Below, one piece after another: positions 11,726-17,793 of a DNA stretch of 32,360 nt. Origin of the DNA: Akkermansia muciniphila (lineage in GTDB: Bacteria > Verrucomicrobiota > Verrucomicrobiia > Limisphaerales > JADLHS01). Under the pieces are notes generated by a model. That model was not told where the DNA came from. It ran no database searches and saw nothing but the letters and a program-made list of their open reading frames with translations. Within the stretch, counting starts at the first letter, position 1; each line of letters opens with the position of its first letter. The stretch covers positions 1 through 32,360 of the forward strand of contig CAMCWI010000012.1 of the NCBI GenBank assembly GCA_945882065.1. The letters run 5' to 3'. The translations under genes were made by a program, and so were the position numbers.

Positions 11726-14700
11726 TCAGCGGTTCGTATCATCCAACACTTCTAAGGGCGGGGCGTCGAAGAGGTAAACGGAGTTGGTGCGGGTGGTCAG
11801 CGCCAGAAAGCGGCCGTCCGGCGAAAAGGTGAGGAAATCGCCCGCATTCGGAAAATCCCAGGAGACAAGCTCGCGCTGCGTTGGGATGTGCCAGAGTTTG
11901 ACTGAGAGATTCATATTCACCGAGGCCAAAGTCCGCCCATCTGGCGAGAACGCGACGGCTGAAGTTTCTTCCATGTGGCCGGGCAATTCGGCAACGAATG
12001 TGCCGGGCCGGGTCTTCCAGAGGCGGATGGTTCCGTCCAGACTGCCACTGGCCAAGGTCGCGTCGTCAGCGGAGAAGGCCAGTCCCCGGATGGTGTCGCG
12101 GTGACCCCTCAACATTTCTTCCCGACCGGAAGCCAAGTCATACAAACGGATCACACTCTCTTTCTGCGCGCCAAGGGCGAGGAAGCGGCCGCCGGGCGAA
12201 ATCGAGCCAGCACTGATCGGCGGCGGCGGACCTTGTAATAAATTCAATAGTTTACCCGAAGTCGCATCCCAAACCGCCACCCGCCCCAGTTGATCCACGA
12301 AGAACAGCGTTTTCCCGTCGAGCGTGAAGCCTTGATATTCCACGCCAGTGCTCTTGTCGTCGCAGTATTCCAATGGGATTGAGGTCACATTGGTGGAATT
12401 CGGAGTCACGACCGACAATGATTTTGCCCCGCGACCCCAGCGGACGAGCCGCTGACCGTCAGCGGTGAAGCTCATGGTGCGGCGGCCCTTGATTTCTTGC
12501 ACCGCACTCAGGTCGTTTAACCCGCGCACAGCGGAAGAGGCGGGGGCATTGGTCGTGCCAGTGGTGACTATCTGCTTGCCGTCTGGGGAAAAGAACGGAT
12601 GCAACGTGCCTTGGTTGGGGATGTAAGAAGTGGCAGGCGGCGCTTCGGGGGACCAAAGTAATACGCGGCGATCTTTGCCGCCGGTGGCGAGTGTTTTCCC
12701 ATCGGGGCTGAACGCCACGGACCAGACTTCATGCTCGTGCCCTCGCAGGACGGATTTTGTTGTCCCAGTTCGTAGATCGGTGAGGCGGACCGTTTGATCG
12801 GAGCTGGTCGTGGCAAGGACGCTGCCGTCCGCCGTGAATGCGGCATCCCAGACCTCCATAGTGTGGCCCAAGATCGCGCCCGGCGGATGGCCGCCGCGCA
12901 GGTCGTGTAGCACTGGAGGCATCGCGCGGCCCATGATCACCAATTGTTGGCTGTCGGGGGAAAATTCTAATCCCCGGACGGCATTGGTGGACTCGATGGT
13001 GCGGAGTAAAATGCCCGTGGTGACCTCCCACAGATCAACGCCTCGTTCCAATCCGGCAATGGCCAGAACCGATCCATCCGGTGCGAGCGCCGCGGTGCGA
13101 CCAGGTTTAGGAAACGTTCGGAGTTTTTCGCCGGTCGCATAGTTCCACACAGTCACCGCCCCCGGCGGTTGCCACCAATAAAAGTAGGAGACTTCGACAC
13201 TCGCGAGCAGCGGAGCGCTTCGCGCCAGCGACGCGGTTTGTCCCGGCAAGTGGCGGACGGGTTGCCACGTTGCACAATCCCAGATCGTCACGCCGCTTTG
13301 GCCGGCGGTGACTAATTGTCGTCCCTCTGGAGTGAAGGTGACGGACCATACCGCGCCAGTGGCGGCGGGAAGGGTGGTGACCAACGCGCGGCGCGCCACA
13401 TCCCAGATTTTTACCGATTGATCCTGGCTGCCGGTGGCCAACCATTGGCTGGTGGGGGAGAAATCCGTGCAGGTCACGATCCACTCATGTTTTCCGAGCT
13501 CCGCCAGCTGCTCGCCATGGCAGCGGCTCCAGAGGCAATACCATTCGAAGCCGCGTAAGTCCGACTCGCCCGCTTGCGGCTGCCAGTCCTCCAAGGTCCG
13601 GCGTGCGAGTCCGAGGTCGCCGCGTTGTAACGCCCGCGCGGCGAAGCTCACATCGCCCGCATATAAATTCAGCCGCACGCGCGCGGCATAATCTTCCGCG
13701 GCCCGCCATTGCCAGAGAATGCCGGCGAGGCCCAGTATGACCACGAGATGCAGCGCCATGGTGAGCGCGGCCAGCACAGGGTGGCGTTTGCCCCAGAGCC
13801 AGAGCTTTTCCAGCGCGGAAACCGCGCGCGCTTCGATGGGTTCATGATCGAGAAAACGCCTCAGATCGTCGGCAAGTTCCTGCGCGGAGCGATAACGCCG
13901 GCCTGGCTCTTTTTGCAGACACTTCAGGCAGATGGTTTGCAGATCCACCGGCACGCTCGGATTCAACCGACGCGGCGCGACTGGATCAACGTTCTGCACC
14001 TGAAGCAAAATGTCCTGCAGGGTTTCACCCTGAAACGGCGGGTTGCCTGTGATGAGGTGGTAAAGAATGGCGCCCAATGAATAGATGTCCGCCGCTGGTC
14101 CGACTTCGTGGCGTTTTCCCACCGCCTGCTCCGGCGCGATATAATTCGGCGACCCCAACACTTGCCCGGTGGTGGTCAAATCCGCATCGGTGCCGAGCAG
14201 TTTGGCGAGACCAAAGTCGGTGATGTGCAGCTGCGAGAACGCATCCAATAGCACGTTGGAAGGTTTGAGGTCGCGATGCAGCACGCCGCGTTGATGCGCA
14301 TATGCCACCGTGGCGGCGATGGTCTGGAGATATTCCGCCGCGCGCTGCGTGGGCAAAGGCTTCCCGCGAACCACTTCGGCCAGATTCGGTCCATCGATGT
14401 ATTCCATCGAGAAAAAGTGCTCCTGCCGTTCTGCGCCGACTTCATAGATGGCGACGATGTTGGGATGCTGCAACGTGGCCATGGCGGCGGTTTCCGTCCG
14501 AAATCGTTGGACGAATTCCGGGCTGGAGAAAGGGCCGCGTAAAACCACCTTCACAGCCACGGTGCGATTCAAACTGAGCTGCCGCGCTCTGTAAACCACC
14601 CCCATCCCGCCGCGCGCGATCTCCTCCAGCAATTCATAGTCCCCCAAGCGATGGAGCGCTTTTTCATCGGAGACGGGGCGGTTCTCTTCTGGAAACAACG

Positions 14701-14803
14701 CGGCAGCGAAGCCCAAGGACCCGAGACATTTTGGGCATAAGCCGCCGGCCGCACCGCTTAACAGCGGTGTCCCGCACTGCGGACACATTGATGCCGCGGT
14801 CAT
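11726..14803 (-). CDS. Serine/threonine protein kinase with N-terminal zinc-ribbon-like motif, TM segment and C-terminal WD40 repeats
   Basis: 1025 aa; CPQCGTPLLSGAAGGLCPKC; GGMGVVYRARQ, VAVKVV, HRDLKPSNVLL, DFGLAK, GSPNYIAPEQ; repeated LAFSPDG..LATGSxDxTVRLW. Confidence 0.95.
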   Translation of the reverse strand: MTAASMCPQCGTPLLSGAAGGLCPKCLGSLGFAAALFPEENRPVSDEKALHRLGDYELLEEIARGGMGVVYRARQLSLNRTVAVKVVLRGPFSSPEFVQRFRTETAAMATLQHPNIVAIYEVGAERQEHFFSMEYIDGPNLAEVVRGKPLPTQRAAEYLQTIAATVAYAHQRGVLHRDLKPSNVLLDAFSQLHITDFGLAKLLGTDADLTTTGQVLGSPNYIAPEQAVGKRHEVGPAADIYSLGAILYHLITGNPPFQGETLQDILLQVQNVDPVAPRRLNPSVPVDLQTICLKCLQKEPGRRYRSAQELADDLRRFLDHEPIEARAVSALEKLWLWGKRHPVLAALTMALHLVVILGLAGILWQWRAAEDYAARVRLNLYAGDVSFAARALQRGDLGLARRTLEDWQPQAGESDLRGFEWYCLWSRCHGEQLAELGKHEWIVTCTDFSPTSQWLATGSQDQSVKIWDVARRALVTTLPAATGAVWSVTFTPEGRQLVTAGQSGVTIWDCATWQPVRHLPGQTASLARSAPLLASVEVSYFYWWQPPGAVTVWNYATGEKLRTFPKPGRTAALAPDGSVLAIAGLERGVDLWEVTTGILLRTIESTNAVRGLEFSPDSQQLVIMGRAMPPVLHDLRGGHPPGAILGHTMEVWDAAFTADGSVLATTSSDQTVRLTDLRTGTTKSVLRGHEHEVWSVAFSPDGKTLATGGKDRRVLLWSPEAPPATSYIPNQGTLHPFFSPDGKQIVTTGTTNAPASSAVRGLNDLSAVQEIKGRRTMSFTADGQRLVRWGRGAKSLSVVTPNSTNVTSIPLEYCDDKSTGVEYQGFTLDGKTLFFVDQLGRVAVWDATSGKLLNLLQGPPPPISAGSISPGGRFLALGAQKESVIRLYDLASGREEMLRGHRDTIRGLAFSADDATLASGSLDGTIRLWKTRPGTFVAELPGHMEETSAVAFSPDGRTLASVNMNLSVKLWHIPTQRELVSWDFPNAGDFLTFSPDGRFLALTTRTNSVYLFDAPPLEVLDDTNR

Positions 14804-16554: not shown

Positions 16555-17793
16555 TCAGGGGCGTCGTCGGTTTGCACCGCGTTGCTTTCGTTTCACGGAT
16601 TGATGGAGTTCGAGGGCGCGGCGGGTTTGTTCGAGTTCGGCGGTCAGGGTTTTTTCCGACGGCAACGCGAGGCGGTATTCGGCAGAGAGGATTTTGTTAT
16701 CGAGGCCGGCCAGCGCGTAGCGGGCGACGGCGTGGTCTTGCTCGGAGCAGAGGATCAGGCCGATGGGCGGATTTTCGCCGGGGCGCGTCCAGTGTTCGCG
16801 GGCATAGTTCAAATACAGATGCATCTGGCCGGCGTCGGCGTGAATGAGCGGTTTGGTCTTGAGGTCAATCACCAGCAGGCAACGGAGAGTGCGATGAAAG
16901 AACAGGAGGTCCACGCGATACCATTGTCCGCCGATGCGCAGCCGCCGCTGGCGTCCGATGAAGGCGAGGTCGCCCCCGAGTTCGAGAAGGAAGGTTTCGA
17001 GGTGGCGGATGAGGGCGTCTTCGAGTTCGGTTTCTGAGTATTCGTCCTTGAGGCCGAGGAATTCGAGGACGAGCGGGTGTTTGATTTCTTCCTCCGGGGT
17101 GACGCGGTCGGACGGGCGAGGGCGAGCGCCTTTGCGGAGCATGGCGGCTTTGTTGCGCGAAAGGGCGGTGCGTTCGTAGAAGAGCGTGGACATCTGGCGA
17201 TCCAACTGGCGCACGGACCAGCCGCCGCGCAGAGCTTCGGTCTCGTAGAAGGCGCGCGCTTCTGGCGAACGAGAGCGGCGCAACAGGTGAACATAGTGCG
17301 TCCAGGAGAGCGGAAAAACTTTTGACCATTCCATGAAGGTGAATTTCCGAATCACTGATTCGGAATTCATGGGGACGAGTGCGGCGGAAGATTTCCGAAT
17401 CACTGATTCGGAAATGTCGGCAGCGGCGGCGGGCGGCAAATTCCGAGTCGCCGTCTCGAAAATTTGCGCGGGCGAATAGCTGGTGTAAAACAGTCGCATC
17501 AATTCGAGGTGGTCCACCGAGAAACCGCGTCCGAAGCGTTTGTTCGGATCGGAGGAGAGTTTGTCGAGCAGTTGCTGACCGTAACCGGCGCGGTACTGGC
17601 CCGCCTGCTCGAACTCGACGATGTGCCGCCCGACTTGCCAGTAGGTCGCGGTCATGATGACGTTGACGGTGCGGGCGGAAGCGCGTCGGGACTCGTCCAG
17701 CAGAGTGACGAGAGTGTGGAGCAGCGATGGATAAGAGTCTGCTTTGCCTGACTTTGATTTTGCGCGTGCGGCTTTCATGCGGAAATGGTTCAA
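16555..17793 (-). CDS. DUF1016 / PDDEXK nuclease-domain protein (YhcG-like)
   Basis: 412 aa; VNVIMTATYWQVGRHIVEFEQAGQYRAGYGQQLLDKLS, RGFSVDHLELMRLFYTSY, LRGGWSVRQLDRQMSTLFYERT, YRVDLLFFHRTLRCLLVIDLKTKPLIHADAGQMHLYLNYAREH (nuclease core D..IDLK). Confidence 0.93.
   Translation of the reverse strand: MNHFRMKAARAKSKSGKADSYPSLLHTLVTLLDESRRASARTVNVIMTATYWQVGRHIVEFEQAGQYRAGYGQQLLDKLSSDPNKRFGRGFSVDHLELMRLFYTSYSPAQIFETATRNLPPAAAADISESVIRKSSAALVPMNSESVIRKFTFMEWSKVFPLSWTHYVHLLRRSRSPEARAFYETEALRGGWSVRQLDRQMSTLFYERTALSRNKAAMLRKGARPRPSDRVTPEEEIKHPLVLEFLGLKDEYSETELEDALIRHLETFLLELGGDLAFIGRQRRLRIGGQWYRVDLLFFHRTLRCLLVIDLKTKPLIHADAGQMHLYLNYAREHWTRPGENPPIGLILCSEQDHAVARYALAGLDNKILSAEYRLALPSEKTLTAELEQTRRALELHQSVKRKQRGANRRRP
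17345..17461. repeat. Array of three palindromic modules at exact 48-bp period inside the DUF1016 gene
   Basis: 17345-17365 and 17393-17413 are both ttccgaatcactgattcggaa (perfect 10-bp arms, 1-bp centre; second extends to 12-bp arms at 17391-17415); 17441-17461 ttccgagtcgccgtctcgaaa is a degenerate third copy. Spacers of 27 bp differ. Confidence 0.9.

Follow-up and report, generated by a model that had tools for sequence, protein, structure and literature searches.

Why should the reading frame of a predicted nuclease contain regularly spaced palindromes that are themselves translated? The question is raised by gene P0001, found on the minus strand at positions 16555–17793 of the window, i.e. 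the whole stretch of 32 360 nucleotides analyzed here, and encoding 412 amino acids when read from a TTG at 17793, with an in-frame ATG five codons downstream of that start. Its product is a plain DUF1016/YhcG member having both domains in the usual order (E 1e-35 and 1e-52), passing the Pfam cut-offs at 123 bits versus 32.8 for DUF1016_N (PF17761; 17170–17709, minus strand) and at 178 bits versus 32.5 for the YhcG_C PD-(D/E)XK nuclease domain (PF06250; 16636–17091, minus strand, residues 235–386), with the first of these matches being stretched by the insert that bears the modules. The family goes by these two Pfam entries, by COG4804 and by the PADLOC candidate label PDC-S02, and its N-terminal part of ~200 residues was described in 2005 as helical and of unknown structure (PMC1189080). 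The scanned neighbors of the nuclease gene were ordinary chromosomal genes and no defence island was seen; a large protein kinase with WD40 repeats is encoded at 11726–14803.

An earlier note on this DNA had described three modules at 48-bp spacing, separated by unlike 27-bp spacers and kept in a common frame, and these coordinates were confirmed. Two identical and perfectly palindromic 21-mers lie at 17345–17365 and 17393–17413, with a degenerate copy at 17441–17461, giving spacings of 48 and 48 bp in a single frame of the minus-strand gene. The natural unit of the palindrome is, however, 25 bp rather than 21. In gene order on the minus strand, module 1 (17439–17463, peptide IFETATRN) thereby forms 9 of the 12 possible pairs, module 2 (17391–17415, ATTTCCGAATCAGTGATTCGGAAAT, peptide ISESVIRK) all 12, and module 3 (17343–17367, peptide NSESVIRK) 11. 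When the junction codons of the window gene were synonymously recoded 20,000 times, a perfect 12/12 25-mer arose in 10 cases and at least 11 pairs in 144; the gene has two near-perfect copies with identical arms. The 21-mer was not found elsewhere in the 3.86-Mb assembly, even when two mismatches were allowed, which was a search that the earlier note had proposed, and the palindrome with its center base left free was absent from the viral contigs searched. Matches to a covariance model of the palindrome were confined, in this genome, to the window gene and a second DUF1016 gene. In the latter (C343:1948–2358), palindromes precede both helix-turn-helix (HTH) units.

The DUF1016/YhcG family is widespread in bacteria, E. 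coli K-12 included, and the array in the window is one case of a feature of the whole family. In relatives, the DUF1016_N match is frequently elongated at one particular place, and the insert responsible is the expanded form of something more general, with the palindrome being present in genes either having or lacking the insert. Its consensus is ATT-n9-N-n9-AAT, 25 bp long and in frame 0, located directly before an (L/P)xW(S/T)H motif and ahead of the second HTH. Among 87 genes gathered by protein family without selection for palindromes, the best 25-mer at this junction averaged 10.9 of 12 pairs, compared with 7.1 in synonymous-codon shuffles, and 85 of the 87 genes exceeded the 5% level of their shuffles; as a control, 1,142 segments of the same genes showed a pairing mode of 6. 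A second set of 54 genes, retrieved from viral contigs by protein similarity, gave 10.6 versus 6.9 pairs, with 53 of 54 beyond the shuffles and all in frame 0. The palindromes hence recur in homologs at the same position as a DNA-level feature, as the earlier note had supposed, and its proposed refutation, homologs encoding the same peptides without palindromes, found no support when run in the form of these synonymous shuffles. The 97% pairing seen in an alignment of 55 modules is no measure of universality, since those modules were picked for being near-perfect palindromes.

Frame 0 was kept by 219 of 220 near-perfect palindromes. The usual copy number is one and the inserts hold two to five, with spacings between modules of 30–114 bp across the family (mode 39), a multiple of three in 119 of 119 cases, so that the 48-bp period of the window is not general. 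At the matching spot before HTH1, 11 of 102 genes have a second palindrome. The modules conserve the peptide pattern I-x-x-x-L-x-x-[KQE]-L, and the half-remembered ISET/ISQT-like repeats of DUF1016 proteins to which the earlier note alluded have a counterpart in repeats of QT type found at this place. Scanning 84,980 species genomes for ATTnnnCAGACAsTGTCTGnnnAAT revealed at least 113 stretches, against about two estimated by chance. Of 96 occurrences of this type that were checked, from viral and genome scans pooled, 68 were within a recognizable DUF1016 frame, in bacteria as well as archaea, and several of the remaining ones sit in decayed DUF1016 copies. Among 141 genomes of the class, strong covariance-model matches were found in 28 of the 42 with DUF1016 and in 3 of the 99 without; as the model was partly trained on the same genes, the sensitivity of this comparison is flattered, its specificity not.

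Several observations place the constraint on duplex DNA. The arms are diverse yet complementary, with 117 distinct 9-nt arms among 141 unselected modules and three or four types of Watson–Crick pair at most variable arm positions. The mismatches comprise 44 G.T and 60 A.C, and the lack of any preference for G-U argues for selection on the duplex rather than on RNA. That each unit could form a hairpin in mRNA, as the earlier note had suggested, is possible, but the same counts speak against the hairpin as the preserved feature. We consider it highly improbable that folding of mRNA or single-stranded DNA keeps the palindrome: perfect pairing would fold well and the arms do covary, but Rfam holds no family matching the palindrome and the relation between protein residues and arm bases described below would be left unexplained. 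An origin in protein-level repeats, with codons that are palindromic by accident, is hardly conceivable; it could draw upon the conserved peptide pattern, but is excluded by the synonymous shuffles and by rules acting on synonymous bases.

To derive such rules, the insert was removed and the arm bases were compared with each of 242 protein columns in 177 genes. The top predictor of every arm base from 4 to 11 was one of five residues in the recognition helices, namely GFS+2, +5 and +6 (columns 73, 76 and 77) in HTH1 and W+1 and W+4 (columns 90 and 93) in HTH2, with two predictors almost equal for base 9 and others close for bases 10 and 11. The z-scores reached 11.5 for base 6 with column 73, 8.7 for base 5 with column 76, 8.7 for base 8 with column 77 and 5.6 for base 10 with column 90. 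Of 72 genes with Arg73, 70 had G at arm base 6, including cases in which the altered codon still specifies the same amino acid. At base 5, Glu76 went with C (25/27), Arg76 with G (25/36), and Trp, Phe, Ala, His or Tyr at column 76 with T (57/60). Ser90, following the tryptophan of the WxH motif, was found with A10 C11 in 109 of 118 genes and Gly90 with C10 A11 in all 12, whereas with Thr90 base 10 was G, T or C, never A, giving the arm [GTC]C. When residue 2 of the module is Val, its codon was GTG in 24 of 24 genes with Arg73 and GTC or GTT in 12 of 15 other genes, and the same third-base effect of Arg73 was seen with Leu, Ser or Arg at residue 2. The rule for residue 90 held also for modules more than 35 residues away from HTH2 (56/63). 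Since Arg73 acts on synonymous bases and the residue-90 rule is obeyed by distant modules, local contacts within the protein cannot be the cause.

About 75 of the 177 genes came from the scan for CAGACA arms, which enriches that arm; this bias is answered by the independent 54-gene set, in which pairing a gene with its own protein gave code log-odds of +2.30, compared with −4.34 for mismatched proteins. In these out-of-sample genes, base calls from the code were clearly better than choosing the majority base at positions 6, 9 and 10, but gained hardly anything at position 5. In every identity class, the core was shared by 0–5% of gene pairs differing at residue 90 and by 53–96% of those agreeing. 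Independent sister pairs with nuclease domains 40–95% identical gave p-values of 9e-12 to 1.6e-5, compared with a median near 0.1 for control columns. Site and reader thus vary together across the family, as judged by covariation in sequence comparisons. An AlphaFold2 model of one relative (L116) places the key residues at the starts of helices 95–107 and 120–127, and the corresponding helices of the window protein are 93–105 (HTH1 recognition helix, 17479–17517, minus strand) and about 164–173 (HTH2, 17275–17304, minus strand), likewise from AlphaFold2. A sequence search of the PDB found no relative. In the window protein, D94, E97 and L98 correspond to columns 73, 76 and 77, predictors of arm bases 4–8, and T165 and V168 to columns 90 and 93, predictors of bases 9–11. 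Scored with this combination (D73, E76, L77, T90, V93), modules 2 and 3 are mildly cognate and represent putative self-binding sites, while the degenerate module 1 is non-cognate.

The residue-to-base code, the sister contrasts and the out-of-sample fit together lead us to read the palindrome as the protein's own dimer-binding site, and we regard it as very likely that the modules are DNA-binding sites of the protein encoded by the same gene. Palindromicity, covariation, DNA-level constraint and code were demonstrated in silico, and from these we infer physical binding and the geometry of the dimer. DUF1016_N carries two HTH units, and a dimer would read the 25-bp palindrome at one 12-bp arm per subunit, such that HTH1 (through GFS+2, +5 and +6) would contact arm bases 4–8 and HTH2 (through W+1 and W+4) bases 9–11. 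The site would be encoded just before HTH2, and sometimes also before HTH1, where flexible helix or linker residues could spell any palindrome, and some genes, that of the window included, have expanded it into an array of two to five copies. As site and reader form one stretch of DNA, recombination would transfer both together, and specificity could drift without loss of the site. Among the three readings that the earlier note had offered, a target-like site came near this answer; a generic mobile palindrome did not, with arms that follow the recognition-helix residues.

Not every module of an array fits its own protein. In 80 multi-module genes the first module scored +1.96 and later ones +0.31 and +0.75, against −3.0 for mismatched controls, but single modules were clearly non-cognate by the code in some of these genes, and arm bases 4–6 can differ within one array; hence not all modules can be strong sites of their own protein. 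Nor does this speak for a CRISPR-like memory behind the shape that the earlier note had compared with CRISPR, the later modules being only partly non-cognate, and a CRISPR array was rejected on account of modules that are translated, kept in frame, present in one to five copies and variably spaced, with no match in Rfam.

What purpose self-binding would serve can be suggested with less force. The most likely use, which we hold to be about evenly balanced between right and wrong, is that of an intragenic operator restricting the nuclease's own expression. Limiting a dangerous nuclease in this manner would be the simplest reason for having a site in every gene. It speaks against autorepression that a palindrome was found within 400 nt upstream in only 8 of 97 unselected genes, which would leave the intragenic site as the sole operator.

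Alternatively, the protein could read the sites in order to cleave them in alleles or incoming DNA, serving homing-like spread, cassette exchange at the palindrome or exclusion of rivals, which we consider a less probable but serious possibility. The fused PD-(D/E)XK domain would fit this purpose, as the nuclease fold of a family member resembles EndoMS/NucS and PADLOC lists the family as a candidate for defence; solitary palindromes within type I restriction–modification (RM) loci and next to a probable Tn7-like element, as well as the distribution of sites in E. coli described below, would agree with it too. A gene with one to five intact sites of its own would, however, attack itself unless restrained, and no mechanism of protection was seen; flanking palindromes occur in a minority of genes only, and the E. 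coli pattern could equally stem from deletion between two palindromes. More tentatively still, DUF1016 genes might be self-addressed selfish nucleases, each harboring, within its own reading frame, a palindromic target that is rare. Lone targets, such as the empty gltD–nanQ site in E. coli or those in RM operons, would then be cut by the protein, whereupon repair or palindrome-to-palindrome exchange would spread or reshuffle the gene; reader and target would move together, specificity could shift without loss of the target, and arrays would store old or rival addresses.

That a mobile palindromic element of the type of Rickettsia RPE, REP or PARCEL was inserted in frame into the linker seems very unlikely to us. 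Copies do exist outside DUF1016 genes, single or arrayed, including two with identical arms at unrelated sites of one genome, but the site is found in essentially all DUF1016 genes and at one place, genomes lacking DUF1016 almost never carry it (3/99 versus 28/42), and its arms track the recognition residues of the protein. The window's genome, having no copies outside its DUF1016 genes, also disfavors this reading. Functionless symmetry maintained by template-switch correction of quasi-palindromes appears just as improbable as the hairpin; the paired changes of a downstream site in E. coli are what it would produce, but it would not lead one to expect that distant recognition residues determine the arm bases, or that one gene family carries the site throughout. 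Template switching may nonetheless be a mutational route.

A binding site read by the gene's own protein remains our preferred explanation, and E. coli yhcG offers a view of its variation. The K-12 gene has three in-frame modules (IHQTMSGEL, IPQTPSAEF and IWQTLSAKS), and its stop codon is followed after 15 nt by a perfect palindrome; the number of modules among E. coli strains is three, two or one. In the downstream site, the only differences are center flips and changes that affect both arms as a pair, with ~40 flanking bases being identical. Two alleles of a gene that is otherwise 97–99% identical have swapped a single block comprising recognition helix and array. At columns 73/76 the two alleles carry K/R and R/W, for which the code would predict a preference for CGC and for CTG/GTG arms, respectively. 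Strains E2348/69, 3385 and EC-TO143, which lack yhcG, have exactly one palindrome in the gltD–nanQ gap, cognate to the K-12 allele, whereas the K-12-type sequence has one just after gltD and another just after yhcG, at both ends of the gltF–yhcG segment. This pattern is compatible with integration or loss at the site, and deletion between the two palindromes is equally possible. From the code, K-12 YhcG is predicted to bind most strongly to arms CGCCAGACA, and ATTCGCCAGACAGTGTCTGGCGAAT is a candidate palindrome for binding by this protein; beyond the gltD–nanQ region, the number of K-12 sites was bounded by a blastn search with one arm type.

Comparison with known systems gives partial likenesses. 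Homing endonucleases recognize a long and rare target that is normally split by the homing gene itself; the presence or absence of E. coli yhcG at its putative target locus may recall these, but the DUF1016 gene itself holds intact putative targets. Rpn nucleases have short amino-acid repeats, located in a C-terminal antitoxin. They are likewise nucleases of defence type with variable in-gene repeats, but the abstract of the study on them describes no palindromic binding site of the own protein (PMC10327210). The dimeric autorepressor RptR, which belongs to a type I RM island, recognizes several palindromes in the promoter and regulates its own gene (PMC12255303), whereas the putative DUF1016 sites are within the reading frame, where they also code for a portion of the DNA-binding region. 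PARCEL repeats also combine an open reading frame with dyad-symmetric coding DNA, variable copy number and horizontal spread, but form a 25-residue tandem amphipathic domain, often in membrane proteins, and are not connected with any DNA binding of their protein product (PMC2996958); the DUF1016 unit has 8–9 residues, and the spacers are unlike and vary in length. Short palindromes within or between genes are also seen in Rickettsia palindromic elements and REP (PMC4316617); the former are ~100–150 nt long and found in many unrelated genes, unlike the 25-bp palindrome of one family with arms set by the protein. Many unrelated loci per genome would be typical of RPE and REP; the window's genome showed the palindromes in its two DUF1016 genes only. 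Our literature search, largely without subscription journals, found no intragenic palindrome, N-domain DNA binding or recognition code for DUF1016/YhcG.

The results suggest a concrete function for a widespread domain of unknown function, also present in E. coli K-12, in a gene family where coding DNA doubles as the predicted binding site of its product and where an amino-acid-to-base code can be read from sequence. Such a code could help in studies on the evolution of DNA specificity, and the self-site may account for the restraint or the spread of a potentially toxic, mobile nuclease.

Non-coding copies were found as well: some flank DUF1016 genes on the 5′ or 3′ side, some lie between hsdM and hsdS, and some are solitary. 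Other genomes have 1 to about 10 sites each, mostly inside DUF1016 genes. A palindrome-flanked cassette as a general rule was rejected, as in an unselected set palindromes flanked only 8 of 97 genes within 400 nt upstream and 3 of 98 downstream. Four intergenic palindromes with four arm types fill an hsdM–hsdS gap (L112, 2841–3008) in a genome without a DUF1016_N match. Five in-frame modules at spacings of 51–57 lie between two metabolic genes with no DUF1016 domain nearby (L167, 5933–6173), this array being a relic or one that has moved. Two perfect palindromes between TniQ-like and comM-like genes, so named from their translations (L259, 2993–3082), lie at the edge of a probable Tn7-like element. 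One genome has palindromes with identical arms GTGCACGCA in two intergenic places unrelated to each other (L260, 3028–3052; L261, 3064–3088). In E. coli B C2566 and O104:H4 (L295 and L310), yhcG is cut short exactly at the end of its third palindrome, and a small transposase gene (WP_000639208) comes next; in strain F5656C1 an IS1 lies within the third yhcG palindrome (L296, 2485–2501), and in LR-71-1 an IS1 starts within the palindrome after gltD (L311). The palindromes may be hot spots for insertion or breakage.
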